Origin: Oscillospiraceae bacterium
GTDB lineage: Bacteria; Bacillota; Clostridia; Oscillospirales; Oscillospiraceae
DNA: 64,000 bases
Direction of reading: 5' to 3'
Assembly: GCA_015068325.1 (NCBI GenBank)
Contig: SVKQ01000002.1
Span: 1-64,000, forward strand
The translations under genes and the position numbers were made by a program. The notes under the pieces were generated by a model. That model had not been told where the DNA came from. It did not search any database and saw only the letters and a list, made by a program, of their open reading frames with translations. The first letter of the stretch is position 1. The number at the start of each line of letters is the position of its first letter. This document shows, piece after piece, positions 3,294-36,584 of this stretch.

Positions 3294-3874
3294 CAGTCCT
3301 CATCCTCCCGGAAAATAAAACCATCCTCGTCGGCCCGCTCAATCACAGCCAGCGCCTTGTAGTTCACGCCCAAGGCACGGAACTTGTCGCCACCGCCCTG
3401 GAAGCCCTTCTCCACGGCGATGCCGATCCCCTCCAGCGTGGCACCGGCCTCGTTGACGATGTCCACCAGCCCCTGCATGGCAAAGCCGTTGGCCATAAAG
3501 TCGTCAATGATCAGCACACGGTCGTCGGCGCTCAGCCACTCCTGGGACACCAGCAGTGTGACCTTCTTCTTGTAGGTGTAGGAAAAGACCTCACTCTGAT
3601 AGAGGCCGCTTTCAATGTTGTCGCTCTTGGCCTTCTTGGCAAACAGCATGGGCACGCCGAACTTCTCCGCACAAACGGTCGCCAGGGCGATACCGCTTGC
3701 CTCGGCAGTCAGTACGACGGTGATTTTATCGATGTCGAAAAATTTGGCGAATTCATCCGCAATGTCGTGCAGCAGCGCGGTGTCGACACGGTGGTTCAGA
3801 AAGCCGTCCACCTTCACGATGTTGCCGGGCAGAACTTTTCCCTCACGGCGGATGCGCTCTTTCAACTGTTCCAT
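3293..3874 (-). CDS. xpt: Xanthine phosphoribosyltransferase
   Basis: 193 residues, matching the family. It makes XMP from xanthine and PRPP, which GuaA in the same operon then aminates. The PRPP-binding motif is [11 protein letters not shown] (about residues 124-134). The start MEQLKERI at 3874 is chosen because GAGGAG lies just upstream and matches known N-termini; a longer open frame reaches 4033 but would cross the promoter. It is first gene of xpt-guaA. The leader is only some tens of bases and I found no guanine riboswitch in it. Confidence 0.95.
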
Positions 3875-3920
3875 GGGCTCCACTCTCCTCAAAAGAAAAA
3901 TTTCCGGATTATATGTGATT

Positions 3921-3949
3921 ATCATACCTGATGCGCATGGAAAAAACAA
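3921..3949 (-). promoter_or_regulatory. Promoter of xpt-guaA
   Basis: TTGTTT (3949-3944), 17-base spacer, TATGAT (3926-3921) on the minus strand. The implied leader is short, about 40 bases. Confidence 0.5.
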
Positions 3950-4060
3950 GAGCATAATCCGTGAAAAAGAGCCGCATTTTTCTTCATTTTTGTCACTTGC
4001 GACAAGATATGAAGCTTGGCTTATCCCTGTCATAAGACAAACACTTTTTCAGATTGTGCA

Positions 4061-4088
4061 TTGCATTTTTTGCGAAAAGGAGTATAAT
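4061..4088 (+). promoter_or_regulatory. Promoter of the DHHW lipoprotein gene
   Basis: TTGCAT (4061-4066), 16-base spacer, TATAAT (4083-4088), 30 bases before the ATG at 4119. Confidence 0.6.
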
Positions 4089-4118
4089 AGCCCACGGAAA
4101 AAAGCGCTGGAGGTATGT

Positions 4119-5609
4119 ATGAAGAGGAGTTTGCGCTGCGTCGCGTTATCTGTCAGCTGTGTTGTGCTGTTGAGCGTGTTGTCGGGTTGTCACAAGCATG
4201 TGCCGGGACCGGAGGCCACCTGCACGGAGCCTCAGGTCTGCACCGAGTGCGGAGAGGTCCTGGCGGAGGCCAAGGGTCACACGCCGGGGCCGGAGGCCAC
4301 CTGTGCCGCACCCCAGACCTGCACCGTGTGTGGGGAGGTACTGGCCACGGTGGAGCACACGCCGGGGCCGGAGGCCACCTGCACCGCACCCCAGACCTGC
4401 ACAGTGTGCGGGGAGGTGCTGGCCACGGTGGAGCACACGCCGGGGCCGGAGGCCACCTGCACCGCACCCCAGACCTGCACCGTGTGCGGGGAGGTGCTGG
4501 CCACGGTGGAGCACACGCCTGGGCCGGAAGCCACCTGCACGGAACCACAGGTCTGTACCGTATGCGGCGAGGAACTGACACCTGCCAAAGGTCACGATGT
4601 GGGCGATGACGGAGTCTGCACCGTCTGCGGCAAGCAGATCAATACGCCCGTCGGGCAGTACACCCCTGCCGGCAGCGGCGGCGCCGCTTCGGCCGATGTG
4701 ATCCCGGAGACCACGCCGGAGGGACACTACCACAACAATATTTCCGCGTACTACAGCAACAGCGTACTGGTGTGCGGCGACTACGCACTGGAATTCTTCA
4801 ACCTGGGCTCCGACGGCAATTCCTCCTATGCCCAGATCCTGAACGACTTTGCTGCCAGGTACCCCGGCGTCAACGTCACCAGCGTCTTGGTCCCCAAGTG
4901 CTGCGCCTTTGAGAGTCCGGAGGGCTATAAGGATCCCGGCCCCAATGCCCGAGACTACATCGCCAATACTTATGCCATGATGGACGGCACCATCAAAAAG
5001 GCCGACGTGTTCGGCATCATGTCCCAGCATGTGGGCGAGTATATGTTCTACCGTACCGATCACCACTGGACGGGCTTGGGCGCCTACTACGCCTACGTGG
5101 CCTACTGTGACGCCAACGGCCTGACAGCCGCTCCGCTGAGCAGCTACAGCACCGTGATCAACACCGGCTTTATCGGTACGCTCTACGGCTATGCCGGCCA
5201 GCCTGCCAGCCTGACAGCCAATCCGGACTACACGGAGGGTCACCTGCCTCAGACGGGATACCGGATGTCCTACTGCCGCGGCGGCAACTGGTACAACGCC
5301 ACTGCCATCAACACGGGCGCCTCCAGCTATGCCGGCATGTACATCGGCGGCGACCAGCCACTGACGGTCATCGAAACAGATCTGCAGAACGGCAAGACGG
5401 TGGTAGTGGTCAAGGAGTCCTATGGCAACGCATTCGTTCCCTACCTGATCGACCAGTATCAGCGCGTGGTGGTGCTGGATATCCGGGAGAGCGAGGGCAC
5501 CATGAGCGAGGTCATGTCGGAGTACGACGTCACAGACGTGGTAGTCATTAACAACCAGCAGGCGGCTGTCAGCCTGCAGGGCTCTCTGCGCAGCAAGCTG
5601 ATGTCCTGA
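4119..5609 (+). CDS. DHHW-family SGNH-like lipoprotein with tandem CXXC repeats
   Basis: 496 residues. The start at 4119 follows TGGAGG by five bases and gives a lipoprotein signal peptide ending in the lipobox L-S-G-C (Cys24). Residues about 27-175 are five tandem 26-27-residue repeats of the type H-x-PGPEATC-x5-C-T-x-C-G-E plus a half copy, each able to form a zinc-ribbon-like CX5CX2C knuckle. After a short Gly/Ser/Ala linker comes a catalytic-type domain with the DHHW motif (YRTDHHWTGLGAYYAY) and a K-E-S-Y-G-N-A Ser motif near the end. This is typical of AlgX/SGNH-like proteins linked to O-acetylation of cell-surface polymers. The protein should sit on the outer face of the membrane; its substrate is unknown. 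No acetyltransferase partner is adjacent. Confidence 0.8.
   Translation: MKRSLRCVALSVSCVVLLSVLSGCHKHVPGPEATCTEPQVCTECGEVLAEAKGHTPGPEATCAAPQTCTVCGEVLATVEHTPGPEATCTAPQTCTVCGEVLATVEHTPGPEATCTAPQTCTVCGEVLATVEHTPGPEATCTEPQVCTVCGEELTPAKGHDVGDDGVCTVCGKQINTPVGQYTPAGSGGAASADVIPETTPEGHYHNNISAYYSNSVLVCGDYALEFFNLGSDGNSSYAQILNDFAARYPGVNVTSVLVPKCCAFESPEGYKDPGPNARDYIANTYAMMDGTIKKADVFGIMSQHVGEYMFYRTDHHWTGLGAYYAYVAYCDANGLTAAPLSSYSTVINTGFIGTLYGYAGQPASLTANPDYTEGHLPQTGYRMSYCRGGNWYNATAINTGASSYAGMYIGGDQPLTVIETDLQNGKTVVVVKESYGNAFVPYLIDQYQRVVVLDIRESEGTMSEVMSEYDVTDVVVINNQQAAVSLQGSLRSKLMS
4197..4643 (+). repeat. Coding tandem repeat, five copies of 78-81 bp plus a partial copy
   Basis: Copies begin with the His codon at 4197, 4278, 4356, 4434 and 4512; a degenerate half copy starts at 4593. 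Copies 2-4 are nearly identical at DNA level, implying recent duplication or slippage, so copy number may vary between strains. Confidence 0.9.
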
Positions 5610-5666: not shown

Positions 5667-6569
5667 TCACGGGGTCTGCCCGGTCAGGTTCTCCTGGACG
5701 AAGCTGACGAACTGCTGCGCCGCCGCGCTCAGGGGCACGTCCCGCAGGGCGCACATATCCACGCTGCGAGGCGGAATCTCAAAGGAAGTCTTCAGCTTCC
5801 GCAGGCGGCCATCCGCCAGCTCCCGGGTGACGAACTCCTCCGTGACGCCTGCCACACCGAAGCCAATGGAAGCCAGGTCCACCAGCAGGCTGCGTGCGCC
5901 CAGTTCAATCTCCGGGTCCAGATGCAAACCGTTCTGCAGGAAATATTTCTCCAAATACAGCCGGGAGGAGGCCTTGCGTTCCAGCAGGATCAGTGGGAAC
6001 CGGGCAATCTCTTCCAAGGAGTACACGTGGTCAAAGTCGCAGGGATATTCGGCGCCTGCCACGAAGATAGCGTGTGTGGAGAAGCAGGGATAGGTGCGCA
6101 GGGAGTTGGACTCGGCAGGGGTGCTTGCGAATGCCACATCCACCTTGCCGGATTGCAGCAGACCAAGCACCTTGTGGCTGCGGCCGGAGATGATCTGGAT
6201 GTGGATGGCCGGATAGCGCCGGTGGAAGCGGTCCAAATAGGGCAGCAGGAACTGGCTGGTCACTGTGTCGCTGGCGCCGATGGTCAGTTGTCCCATCTGC
6301 AGCTCCCGGGTCTGGCTCAGCTTGGCCTCGCCTGTCTCCAGCAGTCCCATGGCGCTGCGGACGTATTCGTAGAGCATCCTGCCCTCGCCGGTCAGCGATA
6401 CGCCACGAGAATTGCGGGAAAAGAGCCGGGTTTGCAGCTCGTTTTCCAGTTGCTTGACGGACTGGCTGACAGCCGACTGGGAGATGTAGAGGGACTGGGC
6501 GGCGGCGGTGATGTTGCCGGCCTCGGCAACCTCCTTGAAGACCTTATAGAGCTCCAGCTTCACAGACAT
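5667..6569 (-). CDS. LysR-family transcriptional regulator
   Basis: 300 residues with an N-terminal winged helix-turn-helix (about 5-65; AAAQSLYISQSAVSQSVKQL) and a periplasmic-binding-like effector domain (about 90-295). AATGAGGT precedes the start. It stands alone, convergent with the DHHW gene and followed upstream by a non-coding stretch before the NrdD-like gene. The target and inducer cannot be read from sequence; LysR proteins often control a neighbouring or divergent gene, but no divergent partner is present. Confidence 0.9.
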   Translation of the reverse strand: MSVKLELYKVFKEVAEAGNITAAAQSLYISQSAVSQSVKQLENELQTRLFSRNSRGVSLTGEGRMLYEYVRSAMGLLETGEAKLSQTRELQMGQLTIGASDTVTSQFLLPYLDRFHRRYPAIHIQIISGRSHKVLGLLQSGKVDVAFASTPAESNSLRTYPCFSTHAIFVAGAEYPCDFDHVYSLEEIARFPLILLERKASSRLYLEKYFLQNGLHLDPEIELGARSLLVDLASIGFGVAGVTEEFVTRELADGRLRKLKTSFEIPPRSVDMCALRDVPLSAAAQQFVSFVQENLTGQTP

Positions 6570-6688
6570 AGATCTACCTCATTATTAGAGTTGATTATTG
6601 AAATGTAATAGATATCGTATTTGATTATACTGATTTTCCGCCGGATTGCAAGAGTAAATTTGGATCGCACACGGCTCTGCCGCGGCAG

Positions 6689-8665
6689 TTACGCCGGCTC
6701 TTTGGTGCAGAGCTGGACGCAGAGAGCGCTGTCATAGAGGGCTTGCAGCAGTGCCATCACCGACTCGGGGGAGGGATCTGCCAACTCTGCGCGGCTGAGG
6801 CCACCGCCGGAGGCGAACTGCTGGAACTGCGCCTCCAGAGCTAGTCGCTGCAGCACGTCGCCGGACGCGTCCTCGGGCAGGCAGCAGCTGTCACTGACGC
6901 CCGGCCGGTCAGTGATGCCCTCCACGGCGCCGAACCGCCGCCGCAGGCATCGGACGAACCGCTCGGAAATAGACTCCGGCGGCGTGCCGTACAGGGTAAA
7001 GGCGATGTTGTGCTGTGCCGTCCACCGACGGCAGGCATCACCCATGGCGCCCATGATCTCCAGAGCGAAGGGCGTGGCGGAGGGGTCTGCAGGGCTTCTG
7101 CCGGTCATATGCAGCACGCACTCATATAGCCCCGCATAGCCCAGCGACAGGGTGGAGCGTCCGCCATAGAGCAGCCGGTCGATGGCCTGGCCCGGCTTCA
7201 GCCGGGCGCAGGCGCCATACTGCCACAGGATGGGCGCCGCATCGGACAGTGTCCCCTTCAGCCGCTCGTGGCGGCACAGCAACGCCCGATGGCACAGCTC
7301 CAGCCGCTCCTCCATGATCTGCCGGAAGCGTTGGATGCTGCCGCCGGAGGAGAGGGCGGCATCCGCCAGGTTGAGGGTGACCACGCCCTGGTTGAAGCGG
7401 CCGTAGGCGAGAGGCCGGTCATACTCGTCGCTATAGGGGGTCAGCAGTGCGCGGGGCCCCATGGGCGGATAGCAGTAGCGCTCGCCGCCGGCCTCCGCCG
7501 CGCGCTCCTTCATCTGCGCTTCACTGAGGAAGACGGGCCCCGTCTGCCCGGTGATACACGCAGCCGCAAGCTCCGTCAGATAGCGGTAGTGACCATCCGG
7601 CCGCAGATTGGATTCCTCCAGCACATAGAGCAGCTGGGGCAGGATGGGGGCGCTCGATTTGCCCTGTTCATTCTGCACGCCCTGACGCCGCTGCAGCAGC
7701 AGTTCCCGGGCGATCAGCGCCAGATCCTCGCGCTCCTGCTCGTCCCTGGCCTCGCCCAAGTGCAGAAAAGCCGCCACCAGGGGCGCCTGCCCGTTGGTGG
7801 TCACCAGCGTCAGCAGCTGGTACTGTATGGTCTGCACACCGCGGCGTACCTCCTGACGCAGCTGCCGCTCGGCGATGGTATCGACGGTTTTGTCATCTGT
7901 GCCGGCACCGGCCGCGGCAAGGCTCTCCCGCACGCTCCGGCGCAGCTTCTCCCGGCTCACCTGCACGAAGGGGGCCAGATGGGCCAGGCTGATGGTCTGG
8001 CCGCCATACTGGTTGCTGGCCACCTGTGCGGCGATCTGGGTGGCGACGGTACAGGCGGTGGCAAAGGAACGGGGCCGCTCGATCCGGGTGCCGTTGATCA
8101 CGGTGCCGTTTTCAAGCATATCCGCCAGATTCACCAGTGTGCAGTTGTGCATGTGCTGGGCGTAATAGCCGGTGTCGTGGAAGTGGAGGATCCCCTCGTT
8201 GTGCGCCTCCACGATATCCTCCGGCAGCAGGATGCGGCTGGTGAGGTCACGGCTGACCTCCCCGGCGATGTAATCCCGCTGGGCGGCGTTGACCATCCGC
8301 CCGTTGCCGGCGGGCAACTGTCCGTCCGGCTCGATACTGCTCTCCAGCAGGGCCAGGATCCGGTCATCGGTGGTGTTGGATCGGCGTACCAGCGAGCGGG
8401 TGTAGCGATAAGTGATATAGTGTTTGGCTACCTCAAAAGCGCCGTGGGCCATGATCTGATGCTCCACCATATCCTGGATCTCCTCCACCGTGGGCGTGCG
8501 CCCCAGCCGCTGGCATTGCAGCTCCACCGACTCGGCGATGCGCCGGATCTGCACCGGCGTCATCCGGTCTGCCTCCTCTACGGAGTCGTTGGCCTTGCTG
8601 ACGGCGACGATGATCTTGGTGATGTCGAAGATGACCTCCGAGCCGTTTCGTTTGATGACCTTCAT
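6689..8665 (-). CDS. Class III ribonucleotide reductase (NrdD) homologue lacking radical-site residues
   Basis: 658 residues. The start MKVIKRNG at 8665 follows GGGAGGGA. An ATP-cone fills about residues 1-95 and the rest aligns by eye with anaerobic NrdD: FHDTGYYAQHMHNC with the substrate-site Cys175, SNQYGGQT, RFNQGVVTLNL, WQYGACARL, STLSLGYAGLYE. Two essential elements are missing. The finger-loop tip that normally reads M-G-C-R is P-M-G-P-R (401-405), so the thiyl-radical Cys is Pro404. The protein stops (TAA) right after QLCTKEPA, before the C-terminal four-Cys zinc site and glycyl-radical motif (R-x-C-G-Y). The frame is otherwise intact. No nrdG lies nearby. It may be an inactive paralogue, perhaps an allosteric or regulatory protein; the function is unknown. 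Confidence 0.85.
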   Translation of the reverse strand: MKVIKRNGSEVIFDITKIIVAVSKANDSVEEADRMTPVQIRRIAESVELQCQRLGRTPTVEEIQDMVEHQIMAHGAFEVAKHYITYRYTRSLVRRSNTTDDRILALLESSIEPDGQLPAGNGRMVNAAQRDYIAGEVSRDLTSRILLPEDIVEAHNEGILHFHDTGYYAQHMHNCTLVNLADMLENGTVINGTRIERPRSFATACTVATQIAAQVASNQYGGQTISLAHLAPFVQVSREKLRRSVRESLAAAGAGTDDKTVDTIAERQLRQEVRRGVQTIQYQLLTLVTTNGQAPLVAAFLHLGEARDEQEREDLALIARELLLQRRQGVQNEQGKSSAPILPQLLYVLEESNLRPDGHYRYLTELAAACITGQTGPVFLSEAQMKERAAEAGGERYCYPPMGPRALLTPYSDEYDRPLAYGRFNQGVVTLNLADAALSSGGSIQRFRQIMEERLELCHRALLCRHERLKGTLSDAAPILWQYGACARLKPGQAIDRLLYGGRSTLSLGYAGLYECVLHMTGRSPADPSATPFALEIMGAMGDACRRWTAQHNIAFTLYGTPPESISERFVRCLRRRFGAVEGITDRPGVSDSCCLPEDASGDVLQRLALEAQFQQFASGGGLSRAELADPSPESVMALLQALYDSALCVQLCTKEPA

Positions 8666-8711: not shown

Positions 8712-8740
8712 ATCATATACTATATATTGTGGTTTGACAA
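8712..8740 (-). promoter_or_regulatory. Promoter of the NrdD-like gene containing an NrdR-like box
   Basis: TTGTCA (8740-8735), 17-base spacer, TATGAT (8717-8712) on the minus strand. The spacer holds CAATATATAGT (8729-8719), which fits the core of the NrdR-box consensus C-W-A-T-A-T-A-T-W-G-T. I did not find a clear second box in phase. Confidence 0.5.
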
Positions 8741-9766: not shown

Positions 9767-10210
9767 CTACGGCCTCTCCCGCTCGTCCAGACAAAGCCTG
9801 ATCTCACTGACGGGGATCACTACGCCATATTTGAAAGTCTTCCCATCAAGGGAGAGAGAGGCTCCCGGTGTGATGCCGACGAGCTGCATCTGTTCGCCTA
9901 CGGCCGCACCGCCGCTGCTGCCAACTTGGATATAAGCGCTGTGTTTCATAGCGTTGCAAGGGAAGTCCCGGTATTCGCCAAACTTCTCGATCCCCGAAGT
10001 GATGGTACCGCAGGAGATCGCAAACCATTCACCCTGCGGATTTCCAATGCACAAGATGCGGTCTCCTTTTTCAGGATCGGAGTCGGCCATTTTGATAACG
10101 GACAGGTCCTCATCCGTGAATAAGCGAATGACGGCCAGGTCATCCCGCTGGCTGACATACATGACATCCGCCGCGTACATGGCGTCATATGTTGTCTTCC
10201 TGCTTTTCAC
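9767..10210 (-). pseudogene. Trypsin-like (HtrA/DegP-type) serine protease, C-terminal remnant
   Basis: 147 codons that match only the second half of the protease fold: the Asp region (RDDLAVIRL, about 22-30), the oxyanion/Ser region V-G-S-S-G-G-A (about 97-103) and the last barrel strands. The catalytic His, signal/membrane segment and N-terminal barrel are absent. Its first codons lie inside the end of rsmA (overlap 10185-10210). It probably survives as a fragment after a deletion that fused its upstream region to rsmA; a truncated active protein is unlikely without the His. Confidence 0.65.
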
Positions 10211-11123
10211 TTGGTTGACCCTTTTTGAAGCAGCTATATGTGCCGTTCTTCTGTATAGCGGCCCCTTCCTGCAGAGCCTCCCAGAGTGCGTTGGTCAGCC
10301 GGGCGTATTCCTCCAGACTCAGCCGCTCGCCCCGAACGGTGGGATCCAGTCCACAGGCGGTGACGATTTTCGCAAGACGCTCCTTGGGCAGGGCGTAGCC
10401 GGTCTGCAGAGAGTTCACCAGCGTTTTGCGCCGCAGGGCGAAACCAGCGCGCACCGTCCGCCACAGGGCTGCCTCGCTGACTACCTCTACCGGCGGTGCG
10501 GGCCGCACCGGGCAGCGGATCACCGCCGAGGTGACCTTGGGGGCCGGCAGGAAGCAGGTGCTGGGTACGGTGAACAGCAGCTCCGGCGCGGTGTAATACT
10601 GCATCAGCAGGGAGAAGGCACCATAGTCGGCGGTGCCGGGCGCGGCGCAGACGCGCTCCGCCACCTCTTTCTGGATGAGGACGGTGAGACTGTCGAAGCA
10701 CCGTGCCTCCACGCAGGCGGTCAGCACCGGAGTGGTGATGTTGTAGGGCAGGTTGGCGCAGAGGATGGGCCGCAGGCCACCGAAGTGCTCCACCGCCAGC
10801 GCCGCCAGATTCATCTTTGTCACGTCGCCCGGGACCAAGGTGAAATTGTCGTACCCCGCCATCGTCTCCGCCAGCACCGGATAGAGCCGTTTGTCCAACT
10901 CCACCGACACCACCTTGCCGGCCCGCCTGGCCAGCTCACGGGTGAGGGGACCGATGCCGGGGCCGATCTCCAGCACGCCTGTACCCTCGTCGGCACCGCA
11001 GGCCTCGGCGATGTCCCGGGGCACCCAGTCGGCAATGAGGAAGTTCTGTCCCATGGACTTGCTGAAGCGAAAGCCGTGGCGGGCAAGAAGGGCCTGTATA
11101 TCGCTGCGGTCACAGAGATCCAT
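10185..11123 (-). CDS. rsmA: 16S rRNA (adenine1518/1519-N6)-dimethyltransferase
   Basis: 312 residues. It dimethylates two adenines near the 3' end of 16S rRNA, a late small-subunit maturation step. SAM-binding motif LEIGPGIG (about 50-57) and catalytic N-L-P-Y in ANLPYNITTP. The start MDLCDRSDIQ at 11123 follows GGAAAGGAGG; the open frame extends far upstream but without homology. The last about 25 residues (GAAIQKNGTY onwards) are an atypical tail that runs into the truncated protease gene, which suggests the natural stop was lost in the same rearrangement. Confidence 0.93.
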   Translation of the reverse strand: MDLCDRSDIQALLARHGFRFSKSMGQNFLIADWVPRDIAEACGADEGTGVLEIGPGIGPLTRELARRAGKVVSVELDKRLYPVLAETMAGYDNFTLVPGDVTKMNLAALAVEHFGGLRPILCANLPYNITTPVLTACVEARCFDSLTVLIQKEVAERVCAAPGTADYGAFSLLMQYYTAPELLFTVPSTCFLPAPKVTSAVIRCPVRPAPPVEVVSEAALWRTVRAGFALRRKTLVNSLQTGYALPKERLAKIVTACGLDPTVRGERLSLEEYARLTNALWEALQEGAAIQKNGTYSCFKKGQPSEKQEDNI

Positions 11124-11198
11124 ATGCCGCCTCCTTTCCTGTATATGTCTACTATACCACGTCCCGTTCTGTTTGACAATTCGCAGGCGAAAAAGCGG

Positions 11199-36470: not shown

Positions 36471-36584
36471 AAAAAGTGTTTCAAACCTCCGCTCAGGAGA
36501 TCTGAAACACTCAAGCAAGCAGCCGAGTGATAGTTGCAGCCCGTGCGCGAAGCACTTCCTTACAGCTACCAGTCTTGAATTGTT
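36471..36584 (-). promoter_or_regulatory. Structured leader with intrinsic attenuator upstream of ssnA (candidate riboswitch)
   Basis: From the expected transcript start (about 36584) the leader can form GTGC-loop-GCAC (36555-36543) inside a TGGTAG/CTATCA stem (36571-36566 with 36533-36528), and a CACTC/GAGTG stem (36529-36525 with 36512-36508). It ends in a terminator: 9-bp AGTGTTTCA/TGAAACACT (36511-36503 with 36483-36475), an inner CTCC/GGAG, then TTTTT. The GAGTG arm is shared with the terminator, so the two folds exclude each other. It does not match the purine, ZTP, THF or T-box consensus that I know. Confidence 0.55.

Follow-up and report, generated by a model that had tools for sequence, protein, structure and literature searches.

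Loss of the radical machinery and retention of the ATP cone in a truncated class III ribonucleotide reductase gene of an Oscillospiraceae bacterium

ATP cones switch many ribonucleotide reductases (RNRs) on and off, by a mechanism that is under active study. What use could such a switch have in a protein that has lost the chemistry it would control? The question is raised by a gene in a stretch of 64,000 nucleotides from an Oscillospiraceae bacterium (assembly GCA_015068325.1, contig SVKQ01000002.1, positions 1 to 64,000), here called the window. An earlier note, made from the sequence alone, had described there a gene of the anaerobic class III (NrdD) family without its thiyl-radical cysteine and glycyl-radical domain. 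The comparisons below make it fairly probable that this gene, a truncated nrdD1, encodes a recurrent pseudoenzyme of the type "allostery without chemistry", which would persist as a regulator or scaffold, probably dimeric, that responds to ATP/dATP. The parts of the gene are listed here, with omega denoting the ratio of nonsynonymous to synonymous substitution rates (dN/dS).

6689–8665, minus strand: truncated nrdD1, 658 amino acids, ATP cone and NrdD barrel without the thiyl-radical cysteine and without the glycyl-radical domain
8390–8665, minus strand: ATP cone (codons 1–92); K5, R6, Y86 and R90 kept, R94 just beyond; omega 0.044 on the window's branch
8291–8389, minus strand: linker and NxN-flap region (codons 93–125); flap Asn pair gone; omega 0.51
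7916–8290, minus strand: N-terminal core (codons 126–250) with HFHD and specificity-site Gln210; constrained, omega 0.08 (126–175) and 0.14 (176–250)
7454–7456, minus strand: codon 404, Pro where the thiyl-radical Cys is expected
7121–7405, minus strand: core segment, codons 421–515 (RFNQGVV to STLSLGY); constrained, omega 0.12 (421–470) and 0.09 (471–515)

The 658-codon frame is real. It is open on the minus strand, which the earlier note had left unstated, and the plus strand in the same frame contains stops. The ATG at 8665, which aligns with the starts of intact relatives, is the likely start because a promoter-like pair, TTGTCA-17-TATGAT, lies at 8740–8712; an in-frame ATG further upstream, at 8716, falls within the predicted -10 hexamer. 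The Pfam ATP-cone model matches residues 1–91 with 83.7 bits (cut-off 25.8). The NRDD model (PF13597) scores 385.3 bits (cut-off 26.2), the barrel extends to residue 646, and the match ends at profile position 497 of 562. The barrel motifs that had been noted (Cys175, SNQYGGQT, RFNQGVV and STLSLGY) are all found. The protein misses the cut-offs of the two NCBIfam NrdD equivalogs that score best with it (PRK09263, 573.5 against 657; TIGR02487, 268.2 against 326.35). It stops before the zinc and R-x-C-G-Y segment, as claimed, and only 119 bp separate the stop codon from the next gene, which encodes a LysR-type regulator. No Pfam match to a zinc-ribbon DNA-binding domain precedes the cone, which begins at residue 1. 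An AlphaFold model of the protein is moderate (mean predicted local distance difference test score, pLDDT, 70.7; predicted template modelling score, pTM, 0.63), and its best structure matches are NrdD proteins, which adds little.

The losses and retentions were compared in four truncated proteins and 90 intact homologues. The four, always given in this order, come from the window's genome (G000), a second genome of the same genus (G014), another genus of the family (G169) and another family of the class (G1082). Of the intact rows, 76 were chosen for the ARRTCGY tail and not for the thiyl-radical cysteine, a filter that 76 of 80 relative loci passed. The structural roles of positions were taken from PMC11226230 and PMC12662201 and mapped by hand on alignments to PDB sequences. 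The finger-loop Cys at position 404 is present in all 90 intact proteins and is replaced by Pro, Gly, Asp and Tyr in the four, so the reported Pro404 is confirmed. A further element, beyond those noted earlier, is also missing. Both Asn residues of the NxN substrate flap are invariant in the intact set and lost in every truncated protein (Asn118: P/E/G/H; Asn120: G/P/E/A), and the equally invariant Asn592 has become D/A/D/D. The normal requirements of an NrdD are thus missing, as the earlier note had stated for the thiyl-radical cysteine and the glycyl-radical domain.

The nucleotide contacts have fared differently, and all seven tested positions of the ATP cone and the specificity site (s-site) are kept in all four truncated proteins. 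In the a-site of the cone these are K5, R6, Y86, R90 and R94, equivalent to Lys7, Arg8, Tyr83, Arg87 and Arg91 of Prevotella copri NrdD. In the s-site, at the dimer interface, they are Q210 and Q283, which correspond to Gln225 and Glu293 in Streptococcus thermophilus NrdD; the second is Gln in intact and truncated proteins alike. HFHD is kept in three of the four (Gly in G1082), as is Cys175 (Ser in G169). The suggestion that Cys398 near the lost cysteine could matter did not hold up: of the 90 intact proteins, 69 have Cys and 21 have Val at this position, and among the truncated proteins three have Cys and G169 has Val. The same division is seen along the whole protein in the 259 columns where at least 98% of intact rows agree. 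Losses number 0, 0, 0 and 1 of 18 columns in the cone, 2, 7, 3 and 3 of 54 in codons 126–250, and 2, 1, 0 and 1 of 37 in codons 421–515. In codons 561–646 they rise to 19, 21, 18 and 12 of 34, and 33 of 36 conserved C-terminal columns are gone from the window protein.

Codon evolution, followed in G000, G014 and G169, points to continued selection. The pairwise omega between G000 and G014 is 0.19 (likelihood-ratio test, LRT, against 1 = 180), which bears out the earlier impression of a selected frame; five intact pairs give 0.03–0.08. In a branch codon model with 13 taxa, the cone of these two truncated genes has omega 0.035 against 0.071 in intact genes, and the barrel 0.305 against 0.050. 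The model rejects equal omegas for cone and barrel (LRT 110.7) as well as a barrel that is neutral (130.3) or unrelaxed (154.1), and the truncated cone is if anything tighter than the intact one (LRT 4.8). An alternative topology gives 0.05 for the cone and 0.273 for the barrel (LRT for equality 73.6). When G169 is tested separately, its cone has 0.059 against 0.18 in intact genes and its barrel 0.181 against 0.086, with LRTs of 12.1 for equality and 29.7 for a barrel at 1. The topology of this test came from a tree that still held seven wrong frames, which its 12 rows exclude. For G000 and G014, the branch model runs to codon 658 and the alternative-topology run to codon 646, and their likelihoods are not comparable.

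Relaxation is uneven within the barrel. With branch lengths fixed, the regional omegas of G000 and G014 are 0.51 and 0.65 for linker and flap, 0.52 and 0.54 for the finger loop, and 0.54 and 0.89 for codons 561–610, the last value being indistinguishable from 1 (LRT 0.4). Constraint persists in codons 126–175 (0.08 and 0.24), 176–250 (0.14 and 0.23) and 421–515 (0.09–0.15). A neutral phase of the barrel, if it were the source of the excess nonsynonymous changes, would be expected to leave about five stops in each of G000 and G014. None is seen, and a stop-free barrel has a probability of 0.005 (G000) and 0.004 (G014) under phase lengths derived by hand from the regional omegas; a tip branch possibly includes time before truncation. 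None of the four truncated genes contains a stop or frameshift. In G000, G014 and G169, purifying selection on the cone has not slackened, and on the barrel it is reduced but still real. The window gene lacks the marks of a pseudogene: its frame is open and its codon evolution is not neutral.

The truncated form has arisen repeatedly. Samples at three taxonomic levels were screened by open-frame length, and losses of the cysteine alone in full-length genes are detectable only among the 90 aligned proteins. These samples overlap, and their counts are not additive. G169 came from the family sample, in which 140 of 400 genomes had a match at 1e-100; its protein has 639 amino acids and neither finger-loop Cys nor tail. 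The class sample, where 121 of 391 genomes had a match, gave G1082, with 654 amino acids, MGC changed to MGY, no tail and no adjoining nrdG. Of the 394 genomes in the order sample, 86 had a match at 1e-80, and open-frame length pointed to no further case; the short rows there, G147, G537 and G210, start or stop at most 30 bases from a contig edge. Five contig-cut family rows (G331, G414, G278, G232 and G389) all extend to the contig end. Nine of 20 loci were excluded as antisense or partial frames (G338, G366, G129, G145, G117, G085, G375, G545 and G561).

A tree on slowly evolving columns requires three truncation changes. The candidate of a single clade for all four genes was rejected on these columns (approximately unbiased, AU, test p = 2.4e-20, a cost of 217 log-likelihood units), in a test on 35 of the 94 aligned rows with columns picked after the slow parts had been seen. 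The number may be four because the trees for G000 and G014 conflict. Protein trees unite the two (supports 99/98, 96/98 and 98/87), whereas G014 groups with intact-gene species in the flanking-gene tree (99/100) and on third codon positions (97/98). Forcing the two together on third positions gives p-AU 0.071, and a species-like grouping on protein gives 0.029. Ninety-eight sites have changed in both proteins, with the same state at 34. The truncated type has thus about three origins, perhaps four, and is a recurrent outcome rather than one clade. The earlier note had named neutral dN/dS and the lack of a conserved family as grounds for refutation; this check did not refute it, but the family is of this recurrent kind.

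Several other nrdD loci were noted in these samples. In G169, the truncated nrdD is followed immediately, on the same strand, by a dUTPase gene (PRK00601, 165.8 bits; L195:804-1241). G098 (L133) carries a pair of NrdD1 genes separated by about 5.6 kb, whose identity to that of the window is 62% and about 52%. In G819, of the same class, a 1092-amino-acid NrdD1 frame (L246:877-4155) carries an intein-like insertion between MG and the thiyl-radical Cys. The insertion matches LAGLIDADG_3 (49.8 bits) and Hom_end (26.3) above cut-off, and Intein_splicing (31.2) below the cut-off of 35.8. The nrdD of G1060 (L245) is broken after "PPMG" by a stretch of about 640 bp, which, as in G819, stands at the thiyl-radical Cys codon or beside it and has no Rfam match at gathering thresholds.

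The surroundings of the gene indicate what it was before.

6570–6688, minus strand: 119-bp gap; in intact relatives this place is taken by about 70 codons for the glycyl-radical domain and by nrdG, 177 codons long in G021
5667–6569, minus strand: LysR-type regulator, conserved neighbour and next gene downstream
10185–11162, minus strand: RsmA/KsgA gene, start unsettled, conserved upstream neighbour

In the genus set of 32 genomes, including that of the window, 27 have a match to the NrdD1 core at E<1e-100. The glycyl-radical tail is present in 22 of these, three are cut by contig ends (G011, G018 and G027), and two are truncated (G000 and G014). Five genomes have no close NrdD1 match (G004, G010, G013, G016 and G017). 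The intact order in the window's part of the genus, read where flanks were available, whole or as far as the contig reaches, is RsmA – nrdD1 – nrdG – LysR – xpt – guaA (G005, G029 and G030); the flanks in G001 deviate from it. G000 and G014 share this order minus the last 70 or so codons of nrdD1 and the whole of nrdG, with about 120–150 bp left before LysR. In G004 and G017, sister species in the flanking-gene tree, RsmA is followed directly by LysR, a full loss of nrdD1–nrdG. The window gene is an in-place remnant of the nrdD1 of the genus and not an extra copy. A paralogue is ruled out by the genus synteny and by the loss of nrdG at the nrdD1 locus. Of the "nucleotide-sensing or regulatory paralogue" proposed earlier, the sensing role fits best and the paralogy falls.

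Other features were noted at this locus and elsewhere in the window. In G021 (L122:10427-11327) the LysR gene is spread across two frames and is possibly broken. A plus-strand frame at 3615–5609 of the window encodes a DHHW/AlgX-like protein (PF14286, 154 bits) that contains near-identical EATCTAPQTCTVCGEVLATVEHTPGP-type repeats; this gene lies between xpt and LysR in G000, G029, G030, G017 and G004, and not in G014, G005 and G021. The sole Rfam match in the window at gathering thresholds is an ssnA RNA (RF03031, 69.6 bits, 36528–36575, minus strand).

One further feature lies in the promoter region.

8717–8732, minus strand: NrdR-box-like 16-mer, 14 of 16 to the consensus, between the -35 (from 8740) and the -10 (to 8712)

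Boxes were scored against an NrdR consensus. In several intact genes two NrdR-like boxes lie at a distance of 31–32 bp, as in G024, where each scores 13 of 16; in others the second box is weak (8–9 of 16 in G029, G021 and G005). G000 keeps one box, whose score was reached in 0 of 1000 shuffles, and G014 keeps one at 12 of 16. G169 has no NrdR-like box above 9 of 16. In E. coli, strong NrdR binding requires two boxes (PMC12051234). The truncated gene may be uncoupled from NrdR because only one box is kept, which is suggestive only.

The window's genome has another reductase, which answers the question, posed in the earlier note, of whether the host carries a complete NrdD and NrdG. A complete NrdD2 (PRK08270, 1156 bits against a cut-off of 548), whose C-terminal extension is glutaredoxin-like by eye, is encoded elsewhere and adjoined by NrdG2 (TIGR02495, 201 against 131). 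This pair presumably makes the deoxyribonucleoside triphosphates (dNTPs). The NrdD2 gene has NrdR-like boxes of 14 and 12 of 16, and NrdD2 is about 24–28% identical to the window protein over aligned parts. In G014, NrdD2 is found as two contig-end pieces and coexists with the truncated gene. NrdR is also present in the window's genome, with 113.1 bits against a cut-off of 124.65 when the cone part alone was submitted. ATP cones were found in this genome only in NrdD2, NrdR and the window gene. No nrdG lies beside the truncated gene, unlike in intact relatives. A PF01228 profile search of the genome found no glycyl-radical domain; its sensitivity is limited, as it also missed the genome's own NrdD2, although the model detects the tail of one intact NrdD1.

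These observations suggest an in-place conversion of an E. coli-type anaerobic reductase into a pseudoenzyme. The second reductase, NrdD2, may have freed NrdD1 from catalysis. The thiyl-radical Cys, the flap, the zinc/glycyl-radical domain and the neighbouring nrdG went, and the promoter-like site upstream was kept. The protein would still fold as a dimer with ATP cones that bind ATP or dATP, and the s-site would perhaps bind a dNTP. In RNRs and NrdR, ATP cones act through the oligomeric state (PMC9110341, PMC11226230). Here the nucleotide state could be signalled through the position of the cone or the oligomeric state, altering contact with another protein. The flap is gone, and its region changes fast; therefore any output of the cone must go by another route, and because of this loss the output would consist in touching some other molecule. 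Such a role would most plausibly belong to dNTP homeostasis, with the surviving reductase NrdD2, NrdR, or replication and repair, and NrdD2 or NrdR is the obvious candidate partner in the window's genome. As a general statement, it is slightly better than an even bet that class III RNRs repeatedly become dimeric sensors of ATP/dATP, and possibly of dNTPs, that keep both sensing sites and shed the radical machinery.

Several points weigh against a retained regulator. Few parts change faster than the linker and flap, through which the cone is known to act in NrdD. The case of G1082 is weaker than the others: its protein lacks the Asp of HxHD, and its cone shows 0.649 identity to 15 near intact proteins, against 0.787 among those proteins themselves. 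Loop 2 (TTNGQAP) is gone in G014. No partner NrdR box is recognisable 31–32 bp away in G000 or G014. The truncated type is rare, and the protein is dispensable in the species of G004 and G017 because both have lost the locus outright. No other NrdD was found in G169, which is 77% complete, so a redundant second reductase is not shown there. In addition, many of the relatives are metagenome bins, and the optimiser was limited to 30–60 iterations in the branch, regional and G169 codon models.

The gene could also be a slowly decaying relic, which we regard as unlikely but worth weighing: NrdD1, redundant beside NrdD2, would have lost nrdG and its 3' end and be heading to full loss, the open frame and conserved cone being merely left over. 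Decay does occur, as seen in the internal stop in NrdD1 of G561 (outside the genus) and in the loss of the whole nrdD1–nrdG pair in the related G004 and G017. The six-fold rise in barrel omega, the near-neutral codons 561–610 of G014 and the unrecognisable partner box would suit a relic as well. However, relaxation spares the cone in all three genes tested, barrel omega stays below 1 (LRT 130), the expected stops are missing and all four frames are undamaged, and the same pattern has appeared in about three origins. An artefact of assembly or gene calling is hardly credible. The four assemblies are fragmented (about 20 to 180 contigs), but the same combination occurs in each, with the gene inside a contig in all four. 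The sequencing error or frameshift that the earlier note had allowed for, hiding the C-terminus, is not supported, given the lack of room before LysR, the absence of nrdG and the same architecture in the separate assembly of G014.

Two further alternatives would give the protein a closer tie to catalysis. It might assemble into mixed dimers or oligomers together with the cell's active NrdD2, adding a second ATP/dATP control, and we consider this improbable. Both genes coexist in G000 and in G014, the N-terminal core and codons 421–515 are still constrained, and P. copri NrdD is an asymmetric dimer with one active monomer (PMC11226230). The low identity of the two proteins, the ATP cone that NrdD2 has of its own and the failure to find another NrdD in G169 (77% complete) argue against such dimers. 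Still less likely, to the point of being very improbable, is a radical enzyme that works through a separate glycyl-radical part, as the earlier note had suggested, or through another cysteine. A spare-part rescue is known for pyruvate formate-lyase (PMC8683613), and Cys398 is close to the lost Cys. But the radical-accepting Cys and the flap Asn pair are gone in all four proteins, the search of the genome, with its limited sensitivity, found no PF01228 domain, and Cys398 is not conserved. In S. thermophilus NrdD, moreover, deletion of the cone together with the flap-bearing connector abolishes turnover, whereas deletion of the cone alone does not (PMC12662201).

If the retained regulator is real, bacteria would have, apart from NrdR, a separate class of nucleotide regulators descended from RNRs. 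With the chemistry removed about three times and the switch kept, the cone-plus-body protein would have a use of its own, and dATP sensing could be studied in a natural system that has the cone but no catalysis. Annotation is affected too: similarity can lead to these genes being labelled anaerobic reductases, although they lack the parts that make dNTPs.

The closest known systems each share part of this design. With the NrdD1 or E. coli-type class III RNR (PRK09263, PF13597), the window protein shares the nrdD1 locus of the genus, the ATP cone, the barrel core, HFHD, the s-site positions and Cys175; it differs in the missing thiyl-radical Cys, NxN flap, zinc/glycyl-radical domain and adjoining nrdG, and in falling below the NCBIfam cut-offs. 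The P. copri and S. thermophilus NrdDs (8p23 series; 9d3x, 9dau and 9dca) are among the best PDB sequence and fold matches and have the same cone contacts, but they are catalytically active and use the cone to move the flap, and the window protein has neither flap nor active-site residues. No report of such a truncated NrdD was found in the open-access literature searched, a coverage outside which preprints and most subscription papers lie. Herpesvirus R1 is a class I RNR. Its pseudoenzymes (HCMV UL45 and MCMV M45, of human and murine cytomegalovirus) are likewise homologues of an RNR large subunit, described as inactive and with another role in PMC5469499; they are viral and act on host signalling (same source), and the likeness is an analogy only. 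NrdR, a repressor made of a zinc ribbon and an ATP cone, also has a cone that senses without RNR chemistry. Unlike NrdR, the window protein has no zinc ribbon and carries a barrel of roughly 560 residues, and the genome encodes a separate NrdR. The spare-part glycyl-radical protein of pyruvate formate-lyase, named YfiD, is a radical domain separate from the enzyme body. The window protein is its mirror image, a body without the radical domain and without the receiving Cys. The window protein would thus be another RNR-derived pseudoenzyme, made in this case from a class III NrdD with its cone kept.

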